A DNA stretch of 64,000 bases from Bolinopsis microptera (lineage: Eukaryota > Ctenophora > Tentaculata > Lobata > Bolinopsidae), in the NCBI RefSeq assembly GCF_026151205.1, contig NC_087082.1, positions 2,072,001 through 2,136,000 of the forward strand, given 5' to 3'. The translations under genes and the position numbers were made by a program. Under the pieces are notes generated by a model that saw nothing but the letters and a program-made list of their open reading frames with translations, searched no databases and was not told where the DNA came from. Positions 2,799 through 47,800 of this stretch are shown piece after piece; within the stretch, counting starts at the first letter, position 1, and the number at the start of each line of letters is the position of its first letter.

Positions 2799-3270
2799 TA
2801 ACTAAGTGATCTACTCAATGCTCATTACAATACTCATGATGATACTCTGAAACGTTTGAGAAAGGCTGTTTCTAAACTCTGAGTTTAATGATATTTTTCT
2901 GTAGACCAGCATGGACCTTGCAAATTGGCGCAGATAAATTCGGTGTAATGAACTTGATAGAGCTCGGTTTATTCATGCATTTATTATTTATTGGTTGATT
3001 TTATAGTGATTTTTGACTCGATGCGTAGAATTTCTTGCCTATTTTGCCAGTTTGTCACAGCTCAATTGGCCGAAACGGTCTTCAGCAAATTTTGTTGTAA
3101 GGCGCTATGAATATTTTATCATATTTTCGACGCTAATGTTGACGCGCGCCGAGCGCACGCGCGTTCTAATTGAAATTAACGAAGATTTTGTGTTGATTAA
3201 CAGCGGGATATTCGTCCACAAATTGCTGTTTTATAGCTGTGGCGAGGTGAGTCATATTCTTTTGACACTT

Positions 3271-3393
3271 GGCAGCAATTGATCTATTAAAACCCTGAAT
3301 CACTGTCACGTGTCAAAACATATGCCTCACCAGAATCCACTTCTGTCACCTTCTATGCGATGGAAATAACTAGAATAACCCTGCAAGGATGTC
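3271..3393 (+). promoter_or_regulatory. ZRANB3 proximal promoter block with CACGTG E-box
   Basis: This is the second copy of the block found upstream of MRPL12. It contains CACTGTCACGTGTCAAAA, then ATATGCCTCACC, then AATCCACTTCT, all within 125 bases of the ZRANB3 start codon. The gap between MRPL12 and ZRANB3 is only about 600 bases. Confidence 0.5.
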
Positions 3394-6300: not shown

Positions 6301-9300
6301 TTAAAATTTACAAGTCATAATAAACTGGAAACAAACAATGACTTGCCTCATGGAGCCTCTGTCGAGAAACTCATCATTGCTGACGCTTCTAACTCTAAGT
6401 ACTAACACAGAAAAGTTATAGTTTATGAGTTTAGATCAAACTAGATATAACAGGTCATAGTAAACGGGAGCAGAAACTAACTGTTACTATCCCTGCACAG
6501 TGCACTTCGTACAGTGTGCTTTGTAAAACTGATGTCTTCAGCGCTTACTGCTATAATTTCTTAAAGTAACTTAAATTAGTAGTACAATTATTCTTACTTG
6601 TAAATTTTAAATATTACTTACTTTCTATGATTGGGCGACTTTTGTCAGAATCCGATATTTTTTTGACAATAGTCGCTGTCGGTCAAGAGTATTAATTGGT
6701 ACCCGTTGTCCGGATCACATTTGTATGTCATGTGATAGTATTAACACTGACAAGCTGTAACAACCTGCCGATAACCTCACAGCTTACAGTAGTATACACA
6801 GAAGAACAATATGAAGATCATTAATCGCAATCGACAATGGCAACCAATGTTCAGTTTATTCCTTGACCAATGCTCGGAGAATCCTGTCCTGGATTGCACA
6901 GGATTTACACAAGGTTAAAGAGTCAAATTTATGGATATTAAATCTAAATATAAAAAGTGGTAATTAGCAAGGAACGATTTCGACATGACGTGAAGTATTC
7001 TGATCAGATTTCAACTTCGGACAACATTCGTTTTTTTTCGGTCACCTGATTCGTCTTACTTTAATTGTTTTTTCAAAAAAGGCAGCATTAAATTTTAATT
7101 TTATTGCAATATAAGGGCTACCTGTTCATCTAAAACAAAAGCCAAAAAGTCGAGTAAGGGACTGGGAACTTCTGTATTTCAACATTAGACTCACATTATC
7201 ACTTATCAGTTATCAGGTAGCGTTCTGATCAAATTTAGCAAGTGCTATCTTGAATATTAGATTAGCCACAGTATGAGATATGAATCTTTGTGAGTAGCGT
7301 TATTCGGTATCACATGATACAACCTTGACAGGAAGGACAGTGCAGTTGTACCAGAGTACGTAAATTTCAGAAACAGGTTCTCAACTGAACGACTCAAGTA
7401 TATGCCGTTTAGTTAGGGTCTTTGTACTGTTCTAGAATCAGATAACACATTGTTCGGACTCACCACCACTTAACAAATAACACCGGTTATTAACGTGTAA
7501 GAACTGGTTATCGCCGGTTAACGACCACTTTAAGCCGTTAGAGAGCGAAAAGTGGTCGAGCCCTGTTCAAAGCAGAGATGTGCTCCCACCAAACTGTGTA
7601 TTTCCTAAAACTGCTTCAAGAAAACCGGGACTATGTAATAACATTGTTTAAATGGAAGAACACTCGCTTCAACCTAAATATTTGGGACAAGACTGTAAAC
7701 TCTATTTAACTAAAGCAATTACAATACACAAACTGTGCGATGTCAAACGAGCAATTCTATCAAAGAAGTGAGAAAAAGTCATTAGCCATCAACTCTAACT
7801 CTCATCATGCGTGCTTGTTCATTTACGGTCTATACTGTTAATTAATGTCACATCTCTGCTTATTATCGCTGACACTATTATTATAAGCTTAATTATTTGC
7901 TCTTTGTGGGCAGTTAGTACGTATCAGAAAACGGTTGACTTCTAGTTGTGCAAATATAATTAACAATGTATTGGAGAATTTCTACTACTGTACAACTGTA
8001 CAATTAAACGAGCAATTTAAAATATTTGAATTATAAAACTTGTATCTATTTAGATATCAAGGTTAGACACGGTTTTCAGTGGGGAAGCATTTCGATTGAA
8101 AGTTTCCGTGTATATCAGAGGTCAGTATATTAAAGTCACTATTGTGACGGTACATTAGAACTAGTGGCGGATATGGTGGCGGACAAACGTAAAATAAAAA
8201 TAAAGATGTTGTATTTGGCCGAAGAAGATAATATGACGATTCACTTGCATGGTCTTCAATGTGTTTTCAGTCGTTCAAGCAATCAAAATTAGCTTCTAGC
8301 ATGCTTTGGCCAGACGAAGCCGTGTATGACAGAAGATTGCGCATTAAAGACAGGCGCTGACAGAGTCGCCAACATTTCGAATTCGTAAAACTGCGTACTG
8401 TGGCAAGGTTCCAACTGTGACAGTGTTACAACTGTACTGTGACAGAGGGGTATAGGACACGAGGGCGGACTGTGACAGTGTTACAACTGTACTGTGACAG
8501 AGGGGTATAGGACACGAGGGCGGACTGTGACAGTGTTACAACTGTACTGTGACAGAGGGGTATAGGACACGAGGGCGGACGTCACAAGGGCGGTACTATC
8601 CTAAATAAGAAAAAAAAACTTGCAACATCACACAATTTAACTTCTGTTTACAAGCGTCAATGTTAAAGTGAGTATCATGTGATCCGCCCTCGTGTCCACC
8701 CTTTTAGGAAATTGCCACCCTTGTGTCCTACGCCCACGTGTCCTCCCCTCTTATTTCTACCGCTCCTGTGTTTTCCACCCTCGTACGGTTCCCGTAAGTA
8801 AGGTGCAGTGTACGTGTTATTCGGGGAAGTAACAATAACAAGCTCGCGTGGTATCAGGATTCAGGGACCCATTCAGAAGCTGTATTTCAAAGTATCACAT
8901 ACATAAAAAATGTTGATATTTGTCCAAAACTTTGGGGAAAAGAGAACTTGACGTACGGTAAATCGGGGTTTATGGTAATCGGGGTATTCAAATACTTTGG
9001 ATCTTACATAGCTTCAACTAGCAAAGACATCAATGTTTAAGAAAGGCCTAGCATGGAAAGAACTGCAGAGTCTAGATACTTTCTGGAAATCGGACATGTC
9101 TAGGAAGATTAATACGAAGATGTTTAGAATTGCAGTAAACCTGTCTTGAAACTCTTTCCAGACTACATTTGGATCGATCTAGGCAGGAAGGGGTACGGTA
9201 AATCGGGGTTTACTGTACTATTGTATCAATATATTATAATAGATGCTACCATCTGTGACAATTGACAAGTCATTTTCTTTGTTGGCACTATTCAATGAGT

Positions 9301-10715: not shown

Positions 10716-13700
10716 GCCGAAAAGGCCCCCCCCCCCCCCTGTTGGCGCTCCCTCCCCTTTTGGTGCCCCTCCCTAAAATTGAAAAAATCAGGTGATTTTA
10801 GAGGGTACGCCGATAAAATCTCTAAAAAAGTGTGTATCTAGAGCAAAACGCGCAGTTTTGCTAGTACTTTATTTAAGTTTTCGAAATTGTCCCACATTCA
10901 AACGACGATTTGGCGCCCCCTAAGACGGCGCCCCCCCCCCCCCCCCCCCCTGCACAGCGGGGTCAGCGGGGCCCTTCGTTACGCCACTGCCCTCAACCCT
11001 TAAACTAAACCTAACATCTAGCATAGTACCTACAGTTTGATGGTGTATAATACAGTCTGTTATAGTACAGTCTGCTGAGGTGATTATAACTTGAATTATT
11101 TATGTAAGATTGAATTTAAACTACATTCTGGCTTATATTATGTAGATTATATTCATTAGATTGCATAAGTTGATTGTGCAGCCAGATCTGAGTCTCAATT
11201 TACTGCTACTATCTTCGATTTACTGGCAATTTCTTACAACCCTCAAGCTCAGTACAGCTCACCTACGCCCTACATTTACCAGGAACCTTGCAGCCCCCAG
11301 TACAGCTCAACTACATTTACCAGGAACCTTGCAGCCCCCAGTACAGCTCACCTACATTTACCAGGAACCTTGCAGCCCCCAGTGCTGCTCCTCTACATTT
11401 ACCAGGAACCTTGCAGCCCCAAGTACAGCCCACCTACATTTACCAGGAACCTTGCAGCCCCCAGTACAGCTCACCTACATTTACCAGGAACCTTGCAGCC
11501 CCCAGTACTGCCCACCTACATTTATCAGGAACCTTGCAGCCCCCAGTACAGCTCACCTACATTTACCAGGAACCTTGCAGCCCCCAGTACTGCTCCCCTA
11601 CATTTACCAGGAACCTTGCAGCCCCCAGTACTACCCATCTACATTTACCAGGAACCTTGCAGCCCCCAGTACAGCTCACCTACGTTTACCAGGAACCTTG
11701 CAGCCCCCAGTACTACCCACCTACATTTACCAGGAACCTTGCAGCCCCCAGTACAGCTCACCTACGTTTACCAGGAACCTTGCAGCGCCCAGTACAGCTC
11801 ACCTACATTTACCAGGAACCTTGCAGCCCCCAGTACAGCTCACCTACATTTACCAGGAACCTTGCAGCCCCCAGTACTGCTCCCCTACATTTACCAGGAA
11901 CCTTGCAGCCCCCAGTACTACCCATCTACATTTACCAGGAACCTTGCAGCGCCCAGTACAGCTCACCTACATTTACCAGGAACCTTGCAGCCCCCAGTAC
12001 TACCCACCTACATTTACCAGGAACCTTGCAGCCCCCAGTACAGCTCACCTACGTTTACCAGGAACCTTGCAGCGCCCAGTACAGCTCACCTACATTTACC
12101 AGGAACCTTGCAGCCCCCAGTACTGCTCACCTACAGCTACATTTACCAGGAACCTTGCAGCCCCCAGTACTGCTCCCCTACATTTACCAGGAACCTTGCA
12201 GCACCCAGTACTGCTTCCCTACATTTACCAGGAACCTTGCAGCCCCCAGTACAGCTCCCCTACATTTACCAGGAACCTTGCAGCCCCCAGTACTGCTCAC
12301 CTACATTTACCAGGAACCTTACAACCTTTCCCACAACAGAATCAGGAATCCTTGTTTTGGGTGCTCCTTGATAATCTTTTTGTGCCAGATACCACATGAT
12401 ACGGGTTCCTTGTGAGGTTACTTTCTAGTCATCATTCAGCAGGCCGACTGTGAAGTTCTCATCTCTATCAAGCATCAATTTATTTTATTCATTTTGTAAT
12501 AATTAATAAGCGCATATCGGAGACATCAAAGACGGGATATATTAACCTATTACAACCTAGCTGGCCCCTTCCTTAATCATAAAATAATATTAGCAAGCTC
12601 TGGTATATATCTTTAAACGTCTCATCTGCATTACTAAACTCCAAGTCTATGGTGAACTACTAGCCCATCAGTATATTAACAGATCCGACATTTTTCTGGA
12701 ATTAGAGTTGAACAACGTCATGCCTACTTATCAAGTATGTACACTTGAAGTAAGCCAAAAAACCATGTAATGTAAGGAAAACAAAGATCTCTCAAGAAAA
12801 ACAACATTATGACTTAAAAGAATATGCAACTTGCACTGAAAATTAGAGCTTAATTTAAAGTATTTTGCTTAGCAATTAGGAAAAATGAAAAAGCTTAGCA
12901 CGGTACGGGGAAGGCGCGTACTACATATTTCAACTGGAATGTGCTTCAATTTTTCAAATCACAACATAAGTTTGTGAGAAGATCTCATATTGTCCAATTG
13001 TTCTGTAGTTGTATTATTGTATTCTATATCTTTTGTTAATAGAATACCACAGACACTATGCTGTAACAACATAATGTCTGAGAAATTCCCGAACCAAAAG
13101 AATGTTTTGATTTTGATAAAACAAAGTATGTGACCTAAATATTAATACAACAAAGGTTGATAAACCAAGGGCTAAACTTGCAAGATCTTTATCGAAAAAT
13201 TAAACACAGTTTACATCATTACTAACCGTAAAGACCTTGCATATAACGATGAATATTCGAATTCATTATTCATACTTAACAGTCAACATTTATTAAACTA
13301 CACAGTTGAATAGAGGACAAACGTTAATTAAATAGAGGACAAGTGAAGAAGGGAGCAGAGGAAGAATGAACAATACTGGTCGCATGAGTCCTGCTGTTAT
13401 GTTGCCTGACAATTCAACAATGAACAATGAGTTAGCTAATATCACTGTGGCAACGTAGGACGTACATAATATAATGAAATGAGTGGGGAATAGTTGGATC
13501 GCCAACTTTTGCTAACAGAGAAATAAAACAACAACCTCAAATACTGGTCTCAGGGTCATTGTTAAATCATAAATTATGCCTTCGAATGATAACTTATTGA
13601 AATTTCAAGTAGTAACGATCTTGCGACAAAGGGAGATGAAACCCTATAGAATATGCAATTGTAAATATGCTGAACACATGTAATCATCCCAGCTAATAGA

Positions 13701-16700: not shown

Positions 16701-19700
16701 TCATACTCAAATGTTGATATTATCTACATTTCTAATCACCTCACAAAACAGAAGAAAGAAGAAATTAACCTAAGATGATAAAGTCGACACTGGCCTGAAG
16801 CCAAAAGAGAGATGAGGAGGACTGAGGAGCAATGCACTCGACCAGAGCCAATAAACCCAGCTGTGACGATCAGGTAAACGAATGGTCAGTCACGTCCAGT
16901 CGTGATCCTTTGATTTAATCGCTGAGTATGCAATTGGAGAGTTGAATGGTATGGATTACTTTTTGTCTAATTGATGAGCAACTATAGCATAGTATAGTAC
17001 CATATTCACACTCGAGCCCTCATCTTGGGTATTTAAACAGATAAATAGTTAATACGAGCAATGTTTGGGTAAGATTTAAAAAGGTATTTATTTTTATTAA
17101 AACAACTATAATACTACATATTCTCTGGATTATTTTATTTACAGTGAATTATATTGTAAACTATAAACGTAAATTTACTGAAATCATGGCGTTTCTCCAA
17201 AGTTCAAAGTATAATTCGGTTAACATAATCAATATATTTATTTGTGCTAATGTTCTCGTTATCTGTTCAAAAATTGTGAATTCAAGAGTATCGCTATAAA
17301 GTTTGACGCATACCCGGTTAACATAATCAATATGTTTATTTGTGCTAGTGGCAATGCAGATAGCTAATGTTCTTGTTATCTGTTCAAAAATATCAAACTC
17401 CGTAAATTCAAAGGTATCGCTATCAAAGCGTATAGCTACACGTTAAGAAAAATGAAATATACGAAATAAGAGTGTTTAGTTCGCAGACATATACATCCGG
17501 CGTCCTTTTTTCAGTGGAGAAGAGAACCAGCCAGAGTTCTTGTAATTGATAAATGACTTCTTTGGCCTGGAATTATGTTGGGTTATTTATAAAAGTCTAG
17601 TATGTAGTAGTGTAGGCACTTGAAAAGTGGTCACTAGCCGACTACTAACCACTTTTTTAATAACAGCTCCTCAAAGTAGGTCTGCTTTAGGGACCGTGCA
17701 TAGACCGTGCAGGGACCGTGCATGGAGTGTCTTTTGTTGTTGCATAGACCGTGCAGGGACCGTGCATAGACTGTCCGGAGCTAAACGACCAACTGGCCCA
17801 AAATACGAAATTTATGAAGCGGCGCCTGGTTATTCTTTAACTTGTCCGTATTTTCTACAAGGTTCAGTAAACCCCCGATTTACCGCGCCCCGATTTACCG
17901 CAAACCCCGATTTACCGCGGCTTTTTCCTTTCTCCCAAACTCAGCGGTAAATCGATAAAATGGTGATTTTCTCAAAAAAATACGAATTGTAATTAATTTT
18001 AAAGAGCGTATTTTTAGAACACTGGTCAGAGTACTTAGTGAGCTTATGTTTGGTTCAGAAAAAAACACATTGAAGAAGTTGGGAGAATTATTTTTAAAAC
18101 AGCTGTAACCATTATATCGTATTTATAACTTTATAACCTCAAGCTGTCATGGGAAAGCATATTCCGCTGAAATGTGACAAAGCTGTACAACATCTTCAGG
18201 CGTGTAAGTTGTAACAGAGCAGTTGTTCAAACGCGGGGTATTACCCCTAGGAGACGATATACTTACTTTAGGTTACTTTAGGTAGGTTCGGCAGGGATCG
18301 CTTCTGGACAACAGTATCAAGTACGTCCTCCAATCACTCCTGGCTTAGATCTTTTTGTAGAGTCCATTCCAGAAGAGAATTATTTGTGATGGCGGTATAC
18401 CCTTTTGTGGGCGGGGTGTCCGGGAAGCCTTTCAGGAATTTAGCAAGGGAGGATTTGAAAGTTTCCAAGACTTGGATTGTGTTAACTTCCTTGGGGAGCA
18501 GGTTCCATAGTTTGGCTGCTTTTACTCCAAAAGAGTTTTCATAATGGGTCGAGATTGAGCATTGTGCCTTTTTGTTAAATGCAGGCACAGTGGCCTTTAC
18601 ACCGTGTCGGGAGCTTTCCTTGAACTGCATGTTGATGTCGTTCGGAGCTAATCCATTCATCATCTTCCATGTATGGATTATGATGTATCGTTCTCTGCGT
18701 CTCTGTAATGAGAGAAGATTCAGGTTCTGCAGGCGTTCCCAGTAATCAAGGTTCTGGCAGCCACTGATTCGACGAGTGTAGTGTCGTTGGATGCTTTCAA
18801 TAGCTTCTATATCGCTGATCTTGTCAGGGTTCCACACCGGGCAGCAGTATTCGAGTTTGCTTCTCACCATGGTTTTGTAGAGTGTGAGCATGAGGAAGCG
18901 TGACCTATCTCTGAATACACTAAGGACCCATGACGTCATCGTCCTTGCTGTTTTAGCCATCTGCTGTATGTGAGAAGACCAGGAGCAGTCATTTGACAGG
19001 AGAACCCCTAGGTCCCTCACAGTTTTGGCTGGGTCAATAGTTCTTCCATTTGTTAAATTGTAACAGGAATATTGACTGGTGAAGGGCAATTCTCTTAACA
19101 GTAATGAATTGTTCAAGCTGTAATTCAATATTTCGAATTTGGCCTCATTTAGTTGCATGTTGTTCTTCAGGGCCCAATATGGATTTGTAACCAAATTATT
19201 CTCCAATCCCTAGGTTACGCTGCATTTGTATGGCAGCATAGAATAGACGAAGCCCAGTACATGAAGACAGAGATGCAGGCAATTCAGAAACTAGTATCAT
19301 AATACCAAGAGGACTCACTAGCCGGCTAATGAACACTTTATGGTTATTAGGCGGTCACTAGCCGGCTACTAGCAACACAAATGCTAGTAGTCACTAAAAT
19401 TAAAAGTAGCTACTAGGTGGCCAGTGATCATTTTTTTTATTTAGAGAGGCTGGGCCAAGATAGCCCACGAGAGGATAGCATTGAGATGCTCTGCCTACCT
19501 CTGGGGTATGATCATGGTCAATTATATTTGATATTCGATTAAAAATAGTAATCTGGTGCCATTGGTTTGCACCGTAGTCCGTTCTGTCCACTCTCTTTGA
19601 AAAGTTCCGCCGTACCGTTCTTCTCAGTAGTGTCCGGTCGCCATCTACAATGAGAAATGTAGTTCGAAAATTCGTAGCAATTTGGGGCGCCTACAACAAT

Positions 19701-22700
19701 TTTATTGTCTTAAAAAGGGTCAGGTCTTAAAAAGGGTCAGGTCTTAAAAAGGGTCAGGTCTTAAAAAGGGTCAGGTCATTTTTTTGGTGCCCCCCACTGG
19801 AACATTGTCTATCTACACTCTACAGCCAGAGATACAATTTTACCACGCTAAGTTTGATATCGTGAACACCCTCGTCCCTACTGTTCCTCCGTTGTAAGCG
19901 GTGTCAGAGGTGTTACATCGCCCCACAGAAAACACATAGTGAACTATGTACGCAATTACTTGGACCCAATACATCGAATTAATCTAAATCCATAAATTTA
20001 TGAAAAACTATTTAATAACAAACAAATCTTTTTTTTCAGAAAAATTTTACTTTAATTATATGTATCATATTACGTATAGTAATGTAACAGAAATCATACG
20101 AAGTTTTATTGATATACACCACACTAGAAATAACAGTCCACTACAAAAAATCACTTCAATAGTACATATCATATACGAATCATAGGAAGATTTATTGATA
20201 TATTACACACATTTATTGATATATTACACACTAAAAATGAATATACACTACCAACAGTCAACACTACCAAAAAAAGGATCGGTGCAGATTGCAGTGGGCC
20301 ATCGGTAACAGGAGAGATATGCCTCCCCCTAGAAATCCTTTTACTAATATAACATAAGAAACTGTGTAATTTAGTCCCTGAAGTCGGCCCGGATTCAAAT
20401 CTTAAGCATTCAAATGTCTTCACGAGCGTGTTAAATCATTTTACACTCTAACTTCGAGATTTAAAAACTGTTGAAATCAACTTAAATCTATGTACTTTTG
20501 AAAGCTGAATCACCCCCAGTCCTCTATCTACTTATTACTTAACTTCTGACATGGAGAGTACTAAGATAACATTTATTGCACTGATCACTAACGCAGTGAT
20601 GATAACATATGACATAGGTGTAAAGGCGACCATGGCCGTACCAAGCATCCCGAAAGCCACGCCAATAGCTGTCGAAATTCCTGACCCTAGTGCAAATTTC
20701 TCTGTTCCGAAGTAATCAATATCAGCAAAGATGTAACTGATAGTCATTACGGAGAACCCGTACAAGAATTTTACCATGAAATTGCTCACAACAACGACAA
20801 AAAGGCTTTCCTTCGCTAGCATCATCACTGTAAAAGCAATCACGTTTAACAATGCGACTATCACCTGTAACTTGCGGAAACTGAGCATATCTCCGATAAA
20901 GTGCCTGAATAACTTTCCAAATAAGGATGCTGAAGTAACAGTGCCCAATAACAACAAATCCGCTCCCTGAGTCACTGTCACCGAACAGTCACTGTTTGGT
21001 TCAGCGTTTTCTATTTTGAGCATCTGGATTAAGGTTGGAACGAGAAGGATTGTAAGCCAGCCTTGGAATACATTCGTCCCATCCAATAGCCCGAGTTTAA
21101 TGATTCTGGCAATAAAATTGGGAGGAACGTCCATTGTTCCTTCTGGTATATCCTGGTTTTGCTCGTTCATTGTTCCTTCTGGTACTTCCTGGTTTTGCTC
21201 GTCTGGCAGTTCTGATGTCTCTAGATAGCTGAAGTGGAGCATGAAAATGGGTGGTATGAATAAAGGTATTGAGGTGAGAAGTACAAAGATCCTCCAATTG
21301 ATTAAATCTAGCAGGAGATATCCTAAACCAGCTGACCAGACTCCACCGATAGCGTACATTACAGCCGAAATCATCAATAGATCGTGTAGAATCGCCTTTT
21401 CGGAAGCCAGCTCAGCTATCATGACATAAATAGTTGAATTGCCGAGTCCTATACAAATGCCAATGAGGGCTCTAGAAAGAAGGAGCGAGTTGTAGTCAGC
21501 AACTATAGCACAGTCCACAGTGCTTAGAACGCTTAGATAGAGGGAGAACAGCATCAACTCCTGTCTTCCAAACCAGTCTGAAAGTGGTCCGGAAATGGCT
21601 AGAGTCACAGCTAATGTGATGTAAAGTATACAATCCAATGTTCCTTCCTGCCACTCAGACAGTTCAGTGACACAGGATATTTGCTGAGTTATCACTCCAG
21701 GCAAATATGTTTCCACTCCGTGTCCAAGATTGATCAGAGCACCAAACACTGCTAATAACTTATCCGTACGTGTCCAGAACGGCTTCCGTTCAACCAAACG
21801 TGTTTCCTCCGTTTCATCGCTCTTATTTAGAGCGTCCGAGTTGGTCATCTAATTGTTGGGTATCTTTTTAATCTACAGAGTGAATGCACATTACGCAAGT
21901 AGAGATATAAAGCAAAAAGGAAATAGTAAAGACAAGATGTTGGTTCTCATTATCGACAACAAGCAGTTATACTAATACCACGTTCAGTGTAAATCATGTG
22001 AATTGTTTTAATTAGGGATCCTCTGATTGGTAACCGATCGGCTAATACGTCATCGACAAAAAAGAGCAAAACCTTAAAGGCTATTGGAAATGTTCAGACT
22101 TCAGAGTTCCAGAAACGATTATATATTTGACTATAGCAATAAAAAGCTCAAAAATCAATATACCTATTGGATTTTTTTCAACAAAATGATGTTTACCTCT
22201 GCACTTGTCCCAAATTAAATTCATAATATCGCAAACGTTATCAGTATCAATAAATACTAATTGCGCTGAGGAAATTGATCTTCAATAAAGTATTATACCT
22301 ATGGACAACAGCTGGTATAAGGTATTTCAGGAATTTGTTGGATTATATTATAGTCTCCTCCAACACCAGTCTTGCTTTAAGGGCAATTATTCAACAAAGG
22401 CAAATAGAAACAATTATAGCTTCAGTATAAGATATTTCAGGAATTTGTTGGATTCTATTATAGTCTCCTCCAACACCAATCTTGCTTTAAGGGCAATTAT
22501 TCAACAAAGGCAATTAGAAACAATTGTTTCGGTAGCATTCCAACACGTTTTGGTGACTGGAAAAAACCTTGGGAGAGGATGGATGAGCGGGAAAGAGAGA
22601 GGGAGGTTATGCTGAGAGTGAAGGAGAACATTGAAATAGAGAGGGAGGTGCAAGTAGGTTCTCTGGAGATGCAGAGCAGGTGGGGTGAGTGGAGAGAGCT

Positions 22701-31700: not shown

Positions 31701-34700
31701 GATCAATGTTGTTGTATTATTATCAATAACAGCGGTAGTTTATTTTCTATCACTCAGTAAAATAGCATATATCAGGACTAACAATTTAATATCAGAGAAA
31801 TCAACATCATTAACCAATTAACTAATTAATTAACTAATTATCCTTCGCAGGTATAGGAGCGATCTACGAGTCAGAGTGGCCGATGTTGGTGGTGGTACCG
31901 TCCAGTATGAAGTACGTATGGTTAGACGAGATACAGAGGTGGTTACCGCACCTCACCCCTGACGAAATACATCTTGTCAAGTGTGCGGAGGATGTTCCGT
32001 TAGTATATTCTTATTTAGTTTATAAATAGGTTTATTAGGAGGTTAATTAGTTTAATTTTTCAATTTTTAGTAAATTGTGTAATAAGTATTTGATATATTC
32101 TTAGCAAGAACTATAAGTCCCTAACTGAAGTTTTTACAATAAATGTCCCGTTTTTTCAGGGACTTAGTTCGGTGTAAGATCTCCATCGTTTCGTACGGAT
32201 TGTTCCAGTATAAACGGTTCTTCGGTCTCCTAGAGAATCTGGACATTACCTTTAAAGTTATTATCTGCGACGAGTCTCACTATCTCAAGGTACGTCAGTA
32301 GTAACCAGGTAACCAGTTACCAGGTAACGAGGTAACCAGGTAACCAGGTAAAGAGAACCTGGACATTACCTTTAAAGTTATTATCTGCGACGAGTCTCAC
32401 TATCTCAAGGTACGTCAGTAGTAGCCAGGTAAAGAGAACCTGGACATTACCTTTAAAGTTATTATCTGCGACGAGTCTCACTATCTCAAGGTACGTCAGT
32501 AGTAACCAGGTAACCAGGTAACCAGGTAACCAGGTAACCAGGTAACCAGGTGAAGAGAACCTGGACATTACCTTTAAAGTTATTATCTGCGACGAGTCTC
32601 ACTTTCTAAAGGTACGTCAGTATTTAAAAATAAACTTTATAATTAATAATATATTGACTTATTAGCTTGATAAATGATAGTTAATAGACACATATCATAC
32701 TGCTGAATAGTGATATCCCATCAACCCCCTCCTCTGTTATTAACGGTTACTCCGCAGAACTGGAAGAGTCTCCGCACGAAACACCTGGTAAAGTTACTAC
32801 AGGGCGCTAGAAGGAGGATACTCCTCACTGGTACACCTGCACTAGCTCGCCCTGAGGAGGTCATTACTTTAGTACATACTTTCAATATGTAAATATTTAA
32901 TACTTTCAACACTACTGTCTACTATATAACAAATAATTTGAGCTAGCAGAATGGTTTTCAGAGGGCATTAATGAAATTTACTATGAGCTGGTCCCAAGTC
33001 CATACGCCATTTTATTCTTTGTAATTTTCAATAACCCTGTCTAGTCATTGACTACTGATTTAGTACATGCTGTATAGAACCACATTTTAACCGTGCGTTA
33101 TGTGTGTGTTAACCGTGCGTTATGTGTCCATCGACAGATTACCGAGTTCCCTAGTATAATTATATAGTACGTTAGTTTAACTGAAGTGTTCCTGGATTCT
33201 TTTTGTTGCTGGCGGGGGAAATTAAATTGGGTTAAAGGGATTAAACCTAGAAATCAGACATTTTAGTTTAAGTTTTACCGAAGAGACGTCAGTTAAGAAC
33301 TTACTGCGTTACTTTAACAGTGCTTTAACACTGTTATCTCAATACTTAAACTGTTTGTTAATAACAGTTTAAGTTACAATTATCGAGGAAATTAGGTCGG
33401 AGAAAGTTATTTCTAGGTGAATTTTTAAGAGCGCTTATCGTCGTCGATCTGGAGTCATTTTACCGAACTTTAGTCATTGAGTAAATCAAGTTTTTATAGA
33501 AAAAAGCACCGCTCACACCACCATCCTGTGTATGGAAAGATTGATAAAATTTAGTTGGATAACGTGAGAACGGAGAAAAGAAGGAGAATATTGGGGCGTG
33601 GTTTAAAGAAAATACTTCTCATTCCTTGGTGAGTTGGTTGGGAAGACCTGAGGTGGAAAAAAACGTGTTAGCTATCACGTGGACTGCATGAGATTCCATT
33701 TATGGGGTCTATTACTATTTCTACTTAAGATGAATCAATACAAATTGAGATGAAATTAACCATGACTCACCGTATCACGTTTGGAAAAGCTAAAGTCTCG
33801 TGTTTTCTCCTTCTCTGGTCCCAGGTTTAGACTCGGTGCGGAGCCTGCATTCTAACGCTTTATCCTGCTCAATTGGAACAAAATAATAATTGTTATAAAT
33901 ATGATGATGGGTAAATATAAAAGTAAACTAGCAGTACGTTATGTATCAGAAGATCTAATTATGTTATATAGGATGCCGGAAATAAACAATACCAGAAAGT
34001 ATCACCCTGTCAACCACTTGTCCTACTAGTATACCCTGCGACCTGTACCTATTGCAACATTACATGTTGTAAGAATTGTAAACTTTTAAACTTTACCTGA
34101 CTTTCTACGTGGTTCTTACCATGAAACAGCTTATATACACGTCATAGTGTCAGATTCTTCCTTCCTTCTCAGTTGTTGACGTACTGGAAATGTTGGGAAT
34201 TTAAAATCAGGATGTGTGTAGGCATCTCCAATCATAAGCCCCGAGTCATACCAATTGTCCAATAACAAAGCGTCCTGGAATGGGAGTATCCATTAAATTG
34301 CAGTTGTATTGGGCTTTTAAATGGATATAAATCTGTTAATACGTATTCTTATAATTTCAATATGAATCAAGACGTCGGTTTATTCCCTGATCATATCACA
34401 AAAGGTGTATCTATCCGGGATTTGTATATGATATCTGAAAAAGCAAAAATTAACAGCTTATTCTGATTAATACAAGTCAGAAAATAAAACATGTTCCTAA
34501 CTCAGTCTATTTCAGTTGTACACCCAGATAAACAGCATTAAACCTGGTTACTTTGGCTCGTATACCAGATTCTGCGAGAAATATTGCCAAGGTAAATCTC
34601 ATATTTTACTATTCGAATCAACCGCTCCGTAAAATTTGAAATGACCATTTCGATCAATTTTGACCACTATGTGGTTTCCATTGGTTTGTAAGTTTTATAT

Positions 34701-36397
34701 TTGGTAAATATTTGGTCAATTTGTAATTAAACGGCATGGTGATGGATATTCAAATTTAATTGTGGCGAATTGTAGGGAACATGTCACCGCAGAGACTGCC
34801 AACTTTTTGTCCAATCAGATAGCTGTATTCTAGTCACGTGACACAAACTAACCAATCAGATCACGGCAGAGGCTGCCAACCTTTCGACCTCTCTTTATCT
34901 CAATCTTTATTACCCCCTGGTTTCGACCACACTATTGTTTTTAATTACTAAACAAATTCGGGATTTAACCATGAATTTAAGCCTATAATGCCCTAAACTT
35001 AACATCATTTACAAGAAAATTTAATTAACTTTATATAACTTCCCCACTAATAGAATTACCAATTGCAACTCTCTGATTGAACTTTTAGGACGTTACAACT
35101 ATAACAGACTGGGCCTAGACGGTATCTATACTCACTACTGGAATACCTAAACCTCAAATAATTTGTTTAACCAAAAATTAGGTTAACATAATGTTTAGTC
35201 TTCATAAGTTCTAGTTATTTGTTTTTGTCTTGCCCACGATTTCAATGAAAATTCAAAACATGCTCAAGCTATAATGCTGAATCTCTCTTTCAAAATTAGA
35301 ATTAATCAATTGACACAAGCTTACAAAAGAAACGAACCAACCAATCAGAGAGCTGTATTCTAGTCACGAGACACAAACTAACCAATCAGAGAGCTGTATT
35401 CTCATGACGGAACACAAACCTACCAATCGTAACACCTTGTCTCCCTAACACCTTGTCCCCTAACACCTTGTCTCCCTAACACCTTGTCTCCCTAACACCT
35501 TGTCTCCTTAACACCTTCTCTCCCTAACACCTTGTCTCCCTAACACCTTGTCTCCCTACTCCCTAACACCTTGTCCCCTAACACCTTGTCTCCCTAACAC
35601 CTTGTCCCCTAACACCTTGTCTCCCTAACACCTTGTCTCCCTAACACCTTGTCTCCTTAACACCTTGTCTCCCTAACACCTTGTCTCCCTACCACCTTGT
35701 CTCCCTAACACCTTGTCCCCTAACACCTTGTCTCCCTAACACCTTGTCCCCTAACACCTTGTCTCCCAGGACACTACAACTACAGACTAAAGCGGTTTGA
35801 CGTAAGCGGAGCGTCTAACCTGGAGGAACTACACCTTCTTCTCACTAATCACGTGATGATACGGCGACTGAAGAGTAAAGTTCTCACTCAACTACCTGCT
35901 AAACAGCGTCAGAAGATATCTTTTGATTTACCAGCTAGTGCTGTACGAGAGGTGGAGAAGGTGAAGTTGAGGTGCGTGGAATTAGAGTATTTATAGAGTT
36001 GGTCACTGAGGGGGTGGAATTAGAGTATTTATAGAGTTGGTCACTGAGGGGGTGGGGTTATTCTGTCTGACACCTGACAACAAGTACACTCCCCAGCCTT
36101 GCTGAACACATCCCCCGTGATAAATCACGCATTGGAATTTATGGAATAAAAAATCTTACCTTCCTAGTAGAAATCTTGATGATATTTTAATATCTAACAT
36201 CTTAGGAAGCTACTTAATTAAATATCTGAGATTTACTGTTACCCGCCAGGTTGGAGGAGGTGAAGGCTGGAGGGAATGATTATGAGGTGCGGAGTGCAGT
36301 GATGGAGTTGTATCACCAGACTGGACTGGCTAAGATACCAGCCTGTGTGGAGTACATCAAGGAGATGTTAAAACAGGTTTAGTTGGAGAGAGTTCCT

Positions 36398-36444
<47 letters not shown>

Positions 36445-39400
36445 TCTTATCTATAGTAGATAGTTGCTGCTCTGAATTAAAAGAGTCATGTTTGTAGCAA
36501 TACAAATTGTAAATAAAAAGAGCAAAAAGAGGAAATGACTCACTATAATTGCTCACCTCATAACAACTGATATCAGGGTAGCAAGTTCCTGGTGTTTGCC
36601 CACCACCTAGCAATGCTGGACGCTATAGAGAGGGAGCTGGTGGAGAGTAAGACGGATTATATTCGTATAGACGGGAGTGTTAGTTCTCTTCTGAGGCAGG
36701 AGTATGTCAGGAAGTTCCAGAGTGCGGAGAGTTGCAAGGTCGCTGTGCTCAGTATGTTATCTTTTACGTTAACAAGCCTGTCAATTTATTATTGAATTTG
36801 AATTATCACATGTTATTATTGGTTGATTGATAATAAATGTGCTGATTAATATTGCATTATGATATATGTACTCTAAAAGTGAAATATAAACTAATATTGA
36901 CCGCTATTAAGCCCTTTAAATGAGACTCCAAGTCACTGCATACTTTTACCAAATACTTTAGATACTTTAACCTGGTTTAGCAATCCTGATTCCTGGTAAA
37001 ACTGGTTTGGTTGGAATAGATAAGTGATAGCTTAAAAATTACCGCGATTAATTTACATAACACACTGTGAACAGTCACTGAGTCACTATATGACAGTACA
37101 TAATGTCATGCACTGTGAACTAGGCCACCCCGAGAATTAGTGATTACAATGCTGTTCTAATAGTTTACATAACGGTCTCACAACTCCATTAGTTACATAA
37201 CTCTGTTAGTTAGTACTGATTAGCGAACGTCATTCAGCTGGCGTTAGCATGTACTTTATAATAGTACAACAATTTCAACAAGTAAGTTATTTACGAGCCG
37301 CTCAACTTCTCACCAAAGTAAACGTGATGAACAAGCAATCAACAGCAAGTTTCAGCAAGCTATTGTTTAGTAAACAGCTTGAAGTTTAGTTGACGTAATT
37401 ATCACAAAATTGTGTATTAGCTCAAACGTCGAACTTTCAAGAATAAATACTAAAGTTGTGAAGTTCAAAAAAAGCCCTTTTATGAGTAAAAATTCGATCC
37501 GATTACACTTTACCTCACTTTACCTCACTTAACCTCACTTAACCTCACTTTACCTCACTTTACCTCACTTTACCTCACTTTACCTCACTTAACCTCACTT
37601 AACCTCAGGTATCCAAGCAGCTGGTGTAGGTTTAACACTTACAGCAGCCTCTCTGGTTGTGTTTTGTGAGCTTCATTGGTCTCCAGGAGTCCTACACCAG
37701 GCTGAGGACAGAGCACACAGGTACTTTGATCTAAGTTTAGCTTCGAACATACACCCCTCGTGGCCTCTAAATATGTACCTCATACATGACACACCCCTAC
37801 ATCAAGAAAGTTTTGAATTTCCTCGCAGGTCTTCTAAAACTTTCCTCTTCGGTACCAAATTTCTTCCAAAATCAGATTATCTGCCGCCTTTCTGGATGTG
37901 GGTGCACACCCGATCCTACCACGTGTAGGTCACAAGTCACAAGACCAATCTGAACTATCTCACCTGCACAGAGCTACCAGATCATCCTGTTATCTGATCA
38001 CATGACTTGATTACCAACTCTTGTTACCACCTCCTCACGTGGTTTATCTAGCAAACTATAACCTGCTTACCTGCAGATCAGATAGCAGAAGGGTATTTGA
38101 AACCGTTCAAGCTCACGTGATCTCTTGTTGTCTTGTTGAGAGACTCGTATTCTTATCAGCTGATCTGAGATTAATCCAATAGACTGGGACCACCAAATAA
38201 TTGCTCGCTTCTCCAAACAGACGAGCTAGCTTCGCAGTTCATCTTCTGATCTTATGAAGTTATGACGAATTTGAATTTTGTATAAGTACCCCGAATCTCT
38301 ATCTAGAAAAGTTATCAGTTTCTAACTTTCTGCAGTATACAACTTTAATTACCTGTTCCTTTATATAAATCATGATGTTCCAGCTATTTCTCGCTATTAC
38401 TACTCTGATATCCTCAACAACCTGCAATGAGATCAGTGAAACATTCGAGAGAGGGTTCGGGTTCAACCACCATTCTCTCAAGACCACTCCAACCAACACT
38501 AAAGTTCCTAAACATCTTCAAGATTTGATCAATAACCCTAACCCAAGATCTAACCGAATAGTCAGCACTAAAGCTACTTCAATGAAGATTTCTAAACATA
38601 AAATTAGTGTCTCCTACACCCTCTCTAAAGACAGTCACCGTCATGGTACTCTCAAAGACGTAGAACTAATAGTTTACCTGAAACCTTCCACTGAGATCTC
38701 GACTCTGAAGATAACAGTTTTGGGAACAGAGCAAAAGTTTAATGTCTCCTCACGATCAGGGGAACCTACAGCTCTGCCTCTGAAGATTAAAAACAAGCTT
38801 GTTGCCTCGCTACAAACCCTCGATATTGTGATCAGTGCTGAGCGGACTCTGCTGAATTCCCACGGTATAGAAGTTACTTCAACTCTGCAAATTAACAAGA
38901 TAATTAACCTCAAAGAGAAACCTCATCTCACCCTCCTTTACAAGAACCAGGAGATCCTTCAACCCTCAGCTAAGATCGCTAGAAGACACTTTCTCCAGAT
39001 GTTTGGTGAGACCCACCACTTGGAACGAAGATCCGCATCTCCCCACTGTAGAGTCCAGGACCTGATGGTAAACTTCAACAAGATCGGACTCAACTCTGTG
39101 GTGTACCCTCTGGACTTTAATGCTCACATCTGCTCGGGAGAGTGTCATATTGACCACGAGGAGACCCCAATGACCAACCACGCCCTCATTCAGAATATGT
39201 TGTATCAGAGCGGAGGGGAGGTACAGGGAGCTTCCTGTGTATCAGACCAAACTAAACCTCTAAGTGTTCTGATTGCTGTGGGACAACACTTCCATCTTAC
39301 TGTGTACGAAGACATGGTGGTCGAGTCTTGTAGCTGTAGATAATATCAATTTAATTATATTTCTAAAAGATATTTCAACTGTTTTAAGTTGATGATAACT

Positions 39401-42400
39401 GTGTGATGTTTTAATATCTTGATTTCAACTCTTAAACAATGTGCCTTTATTGCCTCAATTTCTATAAAGCTGAATATGAAAGAAAGATAAAACTTGGTAG
39501 GAATTAAAATTGATTGTCAAGAAAAAAATAATTAATTACCATACAAAATTTGTAACTGGGCACCCATATAATTACATGGAGTAAAGAATAGATTCCTCAT
39601 CTGAACTGAAAAAAACTAATAATTACCATGATTTGTAAATGTAGTATCCCATATTCACACTAATCTTTACAGGATTTCGCAAAAGAATGCTGTCAATGTT
39701 TACTATCTGATTGGTCTCGGTACCATTGACGAAACTCTTTGGAAAAAACTGAACAGAAAGGTACGTTTTCGGTTAGAAATGGGTTGGCTACCTTTGTTTA
39801 CCATGTTAATCGTTTAAAACATCGTAAACATGGCAAAGAAACAGAACAAGTTGGCTCCTATCAAGATACAACTAGTAAACACTTTTCCGCTCTTTTAGTA
39901 ATAATATTATAATTTGTTACTTGTAACCACCCACCATATCACTAGGTTGTTACTTGTAACCACCCACCATATCACTAGGTTGCTACTTGTAACCACCCAC
40001 CATATCACTAGGTTGCTACTTGTAACCACCCACCATATCACTAGGTTGCTACTTGTAACCACCCACCATATCACTAGGTTGCTACTTGTAACCACCCACC
40101 ATATCACTAGGTTGCTACTTGTAACTACCCACCATATCACTAGGTTGTTACTTGTAACTACCCACCATATCACTAGGTTGTTACTTGTAACCACCCACCA
40201 TATCACTAGGTTGTTACTTGTAACTACCCACCATATCACTAGGTTGCTACTTGTAACCACCCACCATATCACTAGGTTGTTACTTGTAACCACCCACCAT
40301 ATCACTAGGTTGTTACTTGTAACCACCCACCATATCACTAGGTTGCTACTTGTAACCACCCACCATATCACTAGGTTGCTACTTGTAACCACCCACCATA
40401 TCACTAGGTTGCTACTTGTAACCACCCACCATATCACTAGGTTGCTACTTGTAACCACCCACCATATCACTAGGTTGCTACTTGTAACCACCCACCATAT
40501 CACTAGGTTGCTACTTGTAACCACCCACCATATCACTAGGTTGCTACTTGTAACCACCCACCATATCACTAGGTTGCTACTTGTAACCACCCACCATATC
40601 ACTAGGTTGCTATTTGCAACCACCCACCATATCACTAGGTTGCTACTTGTAACCACCCACCATATCACTAGGTTGATGTAGTGGGTAAAACTCTTGAAGG
40701 ACAGGGAGGGGATATGAACACTAATGAAACTGATAATGATGATATAAAGTCTGTGTTAGCTGCCTGTACGGGAAACTCTCCTACAAAACGATCTCCTACT
40801 AAACGACATGGACAGGTATGTGTATTGTGTCCACATTCCCACTACATACTTTAACTTGCACAATTCCCACATGTTTCCTTGGGAACTTTTCCTTTCATTA
40901 GATGTTCCTTATTTGTATGCTACTAACATAATATGTTTCCCTCAGCAAGGTAAGAAGAACTCCCCAGTAAAGAAGCCCTCTTCCTCTCTCTCCTTCTGCC
41001 CGGGACAAACTAAACTGACCCCCTTTCTCAACATGTCTATAGATGAAGACTTTACTGATCCCCGTATCTCTGGCTCTTCTAAGTCGACTGTCTCCTCTAC
41101 TGTCTCCTCTACTGGCTCCTCTACTGGCTCCTCTACTGGCTCCTCTACTGGCTCCTCTACACATCTCAATAGCTCCAGGGTAGATGAGATTCTGAGTCAG
41201 GCTGAGATGAAGAGGGACAGGTTGCAGATGTCTAAATTCGAGAAGAATGCTAAGAAAAGGGGGAGAGGTAAAGAACGGAGTGAAGACGGGGTGAATAAGA
41301 GAGGAAGGGCTGGAGATAAGGGGCTCCTGCAGGTTGAGGCTTGTAGTTCTAGCAAATATTTTAAGAAAGGTGAAAAGGAGCGAACGGACGTGATTGACAT
41401 TGATTCTACCTCTGATGAAGAAACAGATTCAAATGTAGTCGGGTGTGTTATTAAAAAGAACTGTAGAACAGATTCTAAAGTATCACTTGTTCCACCAAAT
41501 AACTCTACTGCTGATATCAGACAGGAAACAAGGAATTTAGATCTGCCTCCGGTAATAGTTATAGACGAATCTTCTACGTCATCAAGCAAGGATCACCCTC
41601 AAACTCCCCCAGAAACATTACAGAGTAGCACTGAAGCAGCTGATGAAGACAGCCAGCCGACATCCTCCTCAGATTCTGGAATAGATCACACCCAAGAACA
41701 CTCTTCTGCAGTGGAAATGATCACGGAAGATGATGATGAGGACTGTTCAGACACAGACTTGTTCAGTGACAGACCCGTTGATACCCTGCAGTTTTCAGTT
41801 AGTGCACATACAGATAGGATATATTTCTACGATTACACTGGAATATACCTGGAAGTGAACTGTCTCCTGCAGGATCTGCTGGACGATACTTCTCTCCCTG
41901 AGCTCCTCACCAACAATCCTCACCACAAGGAAGCTGCGCAGGAGTTCGCCCGACACTGGTCAGGGATCAGCAAGGCTACCCAGACTCGACTACATAACAA
42001 GATCATGTCTGATTTGGATGAGGAGCTCAAGAAGGTTTTTGAGAATCGAGCTTTTTCTACCACCAGGAATTTTAAAGGTCCCAAAACAGCTGTTGACAGC
42101 GAAGAGACAGCGGAACATTCGGTGAAGCTGAGGAAACTGAATGTTGGGAAGAAGAGGGTTGAGATTGAGCAGCGATTCTCGGAGTTGGGTGACCCGTTGT
42201 GTTTAAGCTGTGAGTCTGTGGTAGTAAGACTGAAGTCTAGAACCTCAGTGAGTTGCGTTACCAGGGTAACCTCCTCCACCAACTCGGAACTCTCGAAGCT
42301 TCCATTTCAGGGGAGATTCTGCTCGCTGGACTGTTCACAGCGGTACTAATATAGTTTAATTTATTTGCTTTATTACGTGAAATTCGATTTATTTACTTTT

Positions 42401-44815: not shown

Positions 44816-47800
44816 ATGAGACTCTACAGAAAGCTGCCCCTGCGGCTGGTCTCGCAGACCCTAACCTCCACCCCATCTCGTCTCTACCACCTCACCACCC
44901 CTCTCCTTTCCTCCTCTGACCCCCAACCTAACCCTCAGAAGCACAGCTTTCAGGCTGAGACCCGCCAACTGCTGGACATTGTGGCAAGGTCTCTGTACTC
45001 AGAGAGAGAAGTGTTCCTCAGAGAGCTGGTTTCGAACGCAGCTGATGCACTCGAGAAGTTGAGGTACACTCAGTTGAAGGGGGAGGAGATTGATGACCCT
45101 TCAGCTACTCTTCATGTGGAGTGTTCCTGAGTGAGTCACTCAACTCTCTCACTATTGAGGATAACGGGATTGGTATGACGAAGGAGGAGCTGATAGCGAA
45201 TCTGGGGACCATAGCCAGGTCAGGTTCCAAAGAGTTTGTGAAGACAGCAGGAGCAGATGGTGGTGATACGAGCAACATTATAGGTCAGTTTGGTGTTGGT
45301 TTCTACTCCGCCTTTATGGTGGGAAGTCACGTGACAGTACTTACAAGATCAGCCAAACCCGGCTCAGTGGGCTACGTGTGGAACAGTAATGGAGAAGATG
45401 GGTACGATATCCAGGAGGCAGCAGGACTCCCTAGAGGAACCAGGATAGTGATCCAGCTGAAGGAGGACGCCCTGGAGTTCGTAAAGAAGGACAGAGTGAG
45501 GGAGGTGTTAAGAAAACACAGTAACTTTGTGGGGTACCCTATCTACCTGGATGGTGTACAAGTTAACACTATAGAGCCTCTTTGGACTAGGAAGTCCTCT
45601 GATATTCCTGATCAGGAACACGCGGAGCTCTACCAGAGCTTGTCGGGTAGGAAGGATAACCCCATGTACACCATGCAGTTTGCAGTGGAGACCCCGGTTA
45701 GTATCAAGTGTGTCCTCTACGTTCCCCAGTTCATGCCCCAACTTGACATTGCTAATCTAAAGAACTTTGGGATCAGTTTGTACTGTAAGAAGGTGATGGT
45801 GCAAGCACAGACTCCTAAACTCCTCCCCGAGTGGCTGATGTTCCTACATGGTGTGGTGGACAGTGAAGATATTCCTCTGAATCTTAGTCGGGAACTTCTA
45901 CAAGAATCAGTTGTTATCACCAAGATAAAGAGTGTTATCACTGGTAAAATGATATCTTATCTCAACAGACAAGCTAAGAGGGATCCAGGAAAGTATGAGG
46001 AATTCTACAAAGAGTTTGGGAGGTTTCTTAGGATCGGGATAGTCACCACAGAGAGTCAGACAGAGAAGGAAGACCTGGCTAAACTCCTCAGGTTTGAGTC
46101 GAGCAAGGAAGAAAAGGGCACTATTATCTCACTAGACCAGTATATTGAGAGGGCACCAGAAGGGCAGAAACAGGTGTACTATCTCTCAGCTCCATCTAGA
46201 GATATGGCCATGGAGTCACCCTACTTCGAGACACTCCAGCAGAACGATCTGGAGGTGCTCTTCACCTACAACAAGGAGGACGATGTGGTGTTGTTCAAGC
46301 TGGAGAACTACAAGGACAGGAAGCTGTGCACCGCCGAGGCTGCTAACGTCAAACCAGTGGATAAACCGGAGGAACCAGGACACGAGAAGTTGGAGAAACA
46401 GGAGGGAAATAGGCTGGCTACCTGGTTCAGGTTAGCACTCAAGTAGCACTGTCTTTCATTCAACCCCTGATGAAAACTTTTTAAATATATTAAATTCCTT
46501 GAAATAAAAGTTGAATGATATTATTTTATGGCACGACAGTCATTTTCTATTTTATTCTCCATGCGCCGTGTAAAAAATCATATGAATTTTTCTGAAATGA
46601 AATGACAAATATCATTTCTAATCTGCTTATACATCATTACACTCCAGAGACGCCTTGGGACGGGAGAATGTAAAGGAGGTGAAGATGTCAGACCGTCAAC
46701 ACTCCCAACCTGCTGTCGTGACTGTTGAGAACCTTACCACTCTCAGACGGTACTACTTATTCTTATTATTATTATTAGAAAGTGATTATCGTCGTTTTGG
46801 CCTGCAAAATGTTGCGAACATTTTAATTAATATAAGTGATAAGTACAAGACGACGCCACCCACAATTAAGTGATAAGAACAGGGTGTACCGCATAAAGTG
46901 TGATTCATAAATTCGACACATATTGACACAATGTGATGAATTTTTTTTTTTTTGGAAAACGAAATTAAATATATACAAAATAGTATTACAGGTTATATAT
47001 TATGAAAATCATCATTGCAAAAATAAAACCCAGTCCAAGGGACTGAAAAAATTAGTTGACTTTCGATTCGAAAGAGTTAAATTCTAAATCATCCATGTTA
47101 GATAATTCGTAAGTTTTGTTTGAGGTATTTCTTGATCCTCTAATACACAATAAAATTAATTTCCTAATTAAAAATGATAATTTACACCGATAAAAATTTA
47201 TAATATCGTTGTAATTCTGCTTTTTCTTATAAGCAAGTTTGTTGCAAAGCAGTTTCTCAAATGTCCTGGCTTGAGGTCCCATGCCACCAGTTACTGAATA
47301 AATTAATGGAGCAAATGATCCGTGCTCTACATTAAGTATTCTCTCGTTGTAGCATCGTGTTTTCTGTCTCTCGGCGTTCTCCATGGTCTTCTTTGTCGAA
47401 TGTTGAAGGTAGGAATTAGAATTAGGATTAATTACCTTAACATCGAAAAAAGCCATTTGGCCCGGCCTATAGAAACCACGAGCTCTAATATCGGGTCTTG
47501 CCTGGTCACCCGTTAGTGTTGAGGACCTCTTGAACTGCTCTCCTTCTAGTTCTTGAAGCTGAGGTTCAACTTCCACGTCCGAGCAAACAGTGTTCAGCAA
47601 GCCAGCTAAAAAATCCCTAATTTCGTTGTGTCTGATAATGATGTAGCCACCAAGATGGCAATTTAGAGAATGGTTCACATCAAACTTTTTTCCGCATGGA
47701 CATTGTGATGGCAAACGATCCAGATCTAAGTTGTATCGCAATCTGATAGAATCCCTGAATTCAGATTTATTTAGAACGAAACCATGTTTTCTAAGTGGTA

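Follow-up and report, generated by a model that had tools for sequence, protein, structure and literature searches.

A 33-bp minisatellite spanning the acceptor boundary of a ZRANB3-like exon in the ctenophore Bolinopsis microptera, with related arrays at other splice junctions

Results

The ZRANB3-like gene and its neighbourhood

The window described here, a 64,000-nucleotide stretch of the Bolinopsis microptera genome (C11:2072001-2136000, from an assembly of 264.65 Mb in 232 contigs that represents one haplotype), contains a ZRANB3-like gene, of the DNA-repair type, on the forward strand, 13 exons of which were placed between 4232 and 42706 and give no stop codon when concatenated. Its translation matches the SNF2 domain (PF00176, 5.1e-34) and Helicase_C (PF00271, 2.9e-17), and an HNH domain (PF01844, 2.6e-9) was found in the separately submitted translation of E14-E15, a pair of exons lying further downstream in the same orientation. 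A SNF2 helicase with a C-terminal HNH nuclease domain is the combination found in ZRANB3, with HNH as its defining feature; ZRANB3 is further characterised by an NZF zinc finger and PIP/APIM motifs. We infer that a single mRNA includes both the helicase exons and the HNH exons (42816 and 44065), across an E13/E14 boundary without an in-phase join: E13 (42706) and E14 (42816) are out of phase by one base, for which a small unseen exon or an assembly indel is a possible cause.

The first mapped intron of the gene, 4383-31850, is 27.5 kb long and contains two antisense open reading frames, GPCR-like (4564-5652) and transporter-like (20535-21848), together with a reverse-transcriptase-like piece at 18334-19209, all three named by eye. 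Another intron houses a TGF-beta-type ligand reading frame (38369-39343; PF00019, 3e-20) with the same orientation as the host gene. At ~45097-45130 a TRAP1-like (HSP90 family) coding exon switches frame with no obvious intron, probably because the assembly is wrong by one base or because the frameshift is genuine.

Between exon E10 (39673-39760), with AAG as its last bases and a phase-0 end, and the exon at 40672-40815 lies a forward-strand intron of 911 nt (39761-40671) with the donor GTACGT, of which 759 nt are a minisatellite. The downstream exon had been called exon 12 in an earlier, sequence-only reading of this DNA; it is E11 here, the 11th placed in a mapping that starts at 4232. It has a purine-rich start, begins with GTTGATGTAG in phase 0 and carries on the frame from the phase-0 end at 39760. 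Furthermore, the alignment of the host protein with the Swi2/Snf2 chain 7zb5_E ("Helicase-like protein", presumably Mot1) is ungapped across the junction (query residues 315-459). Frame and alignment together bear out the proposal that the last AG of the array (40670-40671, closing the unit at 40639-40671) is the real acceptor and that the exon starts at 40672.

Anatomy of the 33-bp array

Tandem Repeats Finder placed the array at 39914-40675, with a period of 33, 23.1 copies and 98% matches, and reading it unit by unit gave 23 forward-strand units at 39913-40671; exact copy numbers in this assembly, here and in the other arrays, may be off, since near 45100 a coding exon seems to change frame. 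The spacing is exactly 33 in 22/22 unit steps. The description of a 33-bp minisatellite whose units each end like an acceptor proved accurate: ATATCACTAG closes all 23 units, which thus end CACTAG with the AG kept in every one. Each unit consists of about 29 nt of the 3' end of the intron plus GTTG, as at the start of the exon. Unit 1 deviates at its first base, with T for G (it begins TTTG); all other variation consists of C/T exchanges, at positions 5, 8, 12 and 16 of the unit, and units 3-6 and 14-21 form runs of identical copies. The array extends from -757 to +4 relative to the junction, so that the repeat unit spans the intron-exon boundary, and the splice signal is preserved copy by copy (AG in 23/23), both of which are marks of the boundary-spanning minisatellites that were named mirages in lancelets (PMC3087553).

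A pattern search of the 264.65-Mb genome (232 contigs) with a 25-nt unit core, allowing <=3 mismatches, returned 23 places, all within the array; the core gave 0 matches on the opposite strand and the reversed control pattern 0, in a search tool with which a missing match does not prove absence. The array locus was thus found in single copy in the assembly, and an origin from a dispersed repeat found no support, as this search gave no unit copies elsewhere in the genome.

Splice signals of the units

Acceptors were compared by position matrix with a set of 61, made up of 15 from the host gene and those 46 of 50 myosin acceptors that scored >6.2. All 23 unit acceptors score 3.0-3.1, which agrees with the earlier count of some 23 tandem candidate acceptors and means that a choice among them can rest only on position and exon context. 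The real acceptor is the third lowest of the 61 and reads TAG, where 59/61 read CAG (TAG 2/61), a contrast that is inflated, as the 46 myosin acceptors were picked by the matrix at >6.2 and boundary choice favours CAG and high scores. Such weakness leaves room for leaky choice, or for an on-off switch. Outside the array, the best AG of the intron (39879-39898, forward strand) scores 2.32 and is directly followed by an in-frame TAA.

Each unit also carries a branch-point-like motif, represented in the last unit by GCTACTTGTAAC (40642-40653, forward strand), with its A at 40652, 19 nt from the intron end. TTGTAAC is present in 22/23 units and TTGCAAC in unit 22, the A lying 19 nt before the final base of the intron, and this motif may serve as the branch point. 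Across the reference set, TAAC occurs between -45 and -12 in 28/61 introns, and in 13/61 and 14/61 in two intervals further upstream.

The first 60 nt of the exon starting at 40672 are purine-rich: their best 20-nt stretch contains 17 purines, as many as are reached in 13/207 exons (this one included), against <=9 purines in the best 20 nt of the sequence that follows an internal unit. By other measures the exon start is less marked, its purine fraction being reached by 21/207 exons, its longest purine run by 20/207 and its GAR count by 72/207.

For each of the 22 upstream acceptors the added distance is a multiple of three and brings in, in frame, the TAG of the next unit, just as the sequence-only reading had predicted. 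Any acceptor ending in TAG would do the same if the exon is entered in phase 0 and the unit length is a multiple of three, and by itself the stop is no evidence of regulation.

Other repeats in the host gene

The host gene contains further arrays on the forward strand. At 32232-32622 the 3' part of E3 and its donor are present in four copies, a donor-side boundary duplication whose last exon-type bases lie at 32289, 32409, 32490 and 32611, with 8-bp GTAACCAG repeats filling part of the spacers. A 16-bp TAACACCTTGTCTCCC array of 21 copies (35430-35767) stops just before the acceptor AG of E6 (exon start 35770), and a 10-bp CACTTTACCT array of 10 copies (37506-37607) ends on the A of the acceptor AG of E9 (exon start 37609); no AG dinucleotide occurs across either of these two arrays. 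Upstream of E6, at 35089-35130, TTTTAG-GACGTTACAACTATAACAGACTGG looks by eye similar to the E6 start, GACACTACAACTACAGACTAAAGCGG, and is perhaps a decayed copy of the E6 acceptor and exon start. Within the first mapped intron, a 41-bp minisatellite of 25.5 copies (11269-12320) is open in all three forward frames for ~400 codons.

Arrays at junctions elsewhere in the genome

Exons of myosin, kinesin, TCP1 and dynein genes were sampled by protein family regardless of repeats, with exon-rich stretches preferred. The rows used were 50/73 for myosin (7 stretches), 113/144 for kinesin/TCP1 (25) and 67/72 for dynein (18), the rest lying outside the stretches; from these 230 rows, 38 acceptors and 26 donors that had no candidate or a score <=4 were excluded, leaving 192 and 204. 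Boundaries outside ZRANB3 were called by a small position matrix trained on ZRANB3 introns and refined on myosin introns.

Arrays span 13/396 junctions (~3%), divided into 8/204 donors and 5/192 acceptors, or 4/191 acceptors if the doubtful myosin acceptor L009 6175 is left out. By family, the spanned acceptors number 1/49 in myosin, 4/87 in kinesin/TCP1 and 0/56 in dynein, and the spanned donors 0/47, 5/96 and 3/61, respectively. The largest are in one kinesin gene (L034, C12:14428000-14435750), in which a 26-bp acceptor array of 112 copies (sense ~2255-5165) is accompanied, at the next matched exon, by a 33-bp donor array of 52 copies (sense ~5635-7380). The acceptor arrays keep the AG throughout (L034 112/112, L022 24/24, L028 4/4, L033 4/4), as the donor arrays do the GT (L034 52/52, L021 8/8, L026 5/5, L022 2/2, L058 5/5, L054 4/4, L050 2/2); in the donor array of L032, 26 GT sites were counted from unit to unit, of which the last apparently lies outside the array.

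In the arrays scored, the mean internal-copy score lies within ~0.8 of the real site, and in L034 the real-site score is reached by 27/111 internal acceptors and 5/51 internal donors. Selection weakening the internal decoys was considered and left no clear sign in these means, although the real site tops the range in some arrays. Every internal copy would lead to a frameshift or stop in 11/12 sampled arrays read at unit level, donor arrays being read over the extension only; the exception is L054, in which 3/3 internal donors would add open, in-frame sequence. With frameshift or stop already the usual outcome, there is no need to invoke selection that gives each internal copy a stop.

Elsewhere in the sample, a myosin intron (L013, C3:11060500-11070400, sense 4361-6251) holds ~240 copies of the 8-mer AGTAACCA with 211 AGs, ending ~14 nt upstream of an acceptor, and two sampled arrays fall wholly within called exons.

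Placement of arrays relative to junctions

Array density in the sample is 0.78 per kb of non-exon DNA, from which random placement expects 8.93 junction-spanning arrays; 13 were observed (Poisson P(>=13) = 0.12). The junction arrays are thus consistent with random placement of abundant minisatellites, and a mild excess is possible. For intronic AGs taken at random, the frequency of an upstream copy is 0.12-0.22, above that of real acceptors (1/15, 1/49, 5/87), and random GTs have a neighbouring copy at 0.12-0.26, above that of donors (1/15, 0/46, 4/96); this background counts positions, so that long arrays weigh heavily in it, and L019 1658 is doubtful.

The three arrays of the host gene that touch acceptors had at first suggested that arrays are targeted to acceptors. 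This was rejected on finding that array coverage of the acceptor window in myosins (6/50) equals the intron background of 0.117; in the host gene the coverage is 4/15 against 0.205, also not above background. The fit to random placement, the background coverage and the comparison with random AGs and GTs together give no sign of arrays aimed at junctions; the arrays that span them look like what is left where duplication crosses an exon edge in a minisatellite-rich genome with tolerant splicing.

Discussion

Origin and tolerance of the array

The reading that we favour, at a probability of about 0.78, is that the array is an acceptor-side mirage minisatellite whose exon-proximal copy is used, the 22 others being removed with the intron and neutrally tolerated. 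By analogy with the lancelet arrays, tolerance rather than retention for a function would be the most likely reason for its presence.

In its origin, a 33-bp boundary segment (about 29 nt of intron end plus GTTG) would have been copied on the spot, with short direct repeats of TTG as the probable end points. The repeated stretch opens with TTG at 39914 and closes with TTG at 40675, so that a duplication bounded by such repeats, in an intron originally ~185 nt long, is plausible. Slippage or unequal exchange would then have brought the array to 23 copies, and the runs of identical units suggest that expansion was recent. Differences in array length between individuals are plausible, given these runs and the analogy with lancelet mirages, in which copy number is described as differing between haplotypes (PMC3087553).

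The mechanism would then require that the last copy be chosen from a row of equals. Normal splicing would mean that the exon-proximal copy beats 22 close rivals in the ZRANB3-like gene, or 111 in the L034 kinesin gene. Classic work on duplicated 3' splice sites counts against this, since the copy closer to the 5' splice site can prevail there, an outcome that in this array would single out unit 1. Pairing of sites across the intron favours that opposite end of the array, whereas pairing across the exon picks out the copy needed for the protein, which would point to exon definition: the last copy would win through recognition of the exon as a whole, perhaps aided by the purine-rich sequence beside it. 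The remaining 22 copies would be spliced out with the intron, and use of any of them would yield transcripts with premature stops.

Alternative explanations

The alternative that best survives, though we hold it unlikely, is that the array acts as a rheostat: a share of transcripts would be spliced to stop-bearing upstream units and degraded, so that more units would mean less ZRANB3 protein. The in-frame stop at 22/22 upstream choices, the equal strength of the acceptors and the place of the real acceptor among the weakest of 61 all agree with it. Against this, the frameshift or stop that every internal copy brings in 11/12 sampled arrays means that the stop in the ZRANB3 array needs no special reason, arrays are not significantly enriched at junctions, and the published lancelet arrays gave no aberrant mRNA. 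The boundary duplications of the lancelet Adh and TnC genes "do not generate aberrant mRNAs" (PMC3902484), and RT-PCR of the globin genes likewise indicated undisturbed splicing (PMC3087553). The suggestion that choice of unit could switch protein production off therefore found no support in the sequence, given acceptors of equal score, array-spanned junctions at a frequency of ~3% (13/396) in numbers that fit random placement, and undisturbed splicing in lancelets. A genome-wide version, in which the copy number of splice sites in rapidly mutating minisatellites sets the loss of premature-stop transcripts per allele, perhaps per cell, we regard as quite improbable; were the rheostat reading true, many genes with tens to >100 near-equal duplicated splice sites would be involved.

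It is very unlikely that the array serves as a splicing aid, its tandem branch-point and acceptor modules helping U2AF and the branch-point machinery to find a weak acceptor. The regular TTGTAAC, whose A precedes the AG at a distance of 19 nt in 22/23 units, is what such a role would call for, and two further introns of the host gene end in pyrimidine-rich arrays that reach the acceptor; yet coverage of acceptor windows is not above the intron background in myosins or in the host gene, and since each upstream unit brings its own AG, extra copies would divert rather than help. Finally, a boundary elsewhere, for instance at the AG at 40704, which keeps the frame and skips 11 codons, would make the array an unrelated intronic minisatellite, and this is highly improbable, as the 11 codons extend the protein alignment ungapped across the junction and that AG scores 0.65 against 3.0 for the unit acceptor.

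Comparison with known systems

If the favoured reading of an acceptor-side mirage is right, the ZRANB3 array and its relatives would carry boundary-duplicating minisatellites beyond lancelets and into a ctenophore; a limited literature search by title and abstract found no report of them in ctenophores. Engineered duplications are the usual means of studying how the spliceosome chooses among equal splice sites. In this genome, conserved genes provide natural examples, with 2 to 112 near-equal copies on both the acceptor and the donor side; intron definition, which would make the intron as short as possible, and exon definition, which would do so for the exon, each predict use of a different end of the array.

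In NAGNAG-type tandem alternative acceptors, too, a single exon has more than one consecutive acceptor competing for it. The ZRANB3 array differs from these in its 33-bp spacing, in the branch-point-like motif that goes with the AG of each copy, and in the number of copies, 23. In the human IFI6 (6-16) gene, minisatellite units at an exon boundary are described as acting as splice donors that are used in alternative transcripts (PMC4526556). The likeness lies in minisatellite units that carry splice sites at an exon boundary; the IFI6 units are donors, whereas those of ZRANB3 are candidate acceptors, although donor arrays occur elsewhere in the ctenophore genome. The parts consulted of three other papers (PMC4039745, PMC2812944, PMC3618361) do not deal with boundary duplications of the mirage type.

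The closest counterpart is the lancelet mirage, described as an intron-exon boundary, at either an acceptor or a donor, that has been duplicated in tandem, with many copies keeping AG or GT (PMC3087553, PMC3902484). The cases given are Adh3, the globin genes BflGb6 and BflGb9, TnC and PGBD5 (PMC3087553, PMC3902484). The ZRANB3 array shares with them a minisatellite-like duplication of the boundary in which the AG is kept. Copy-number differences and normal splicing are reported for the lancelet arrays, whereas the ZRANB3 array is assigned to the class by its anatomy. Compared with lancelet mirages, it stands out for its 23 near-identical 33-bp copies, and its relatives for reaching up to 112 copies and for spanning ~3% of the sampled junctions.
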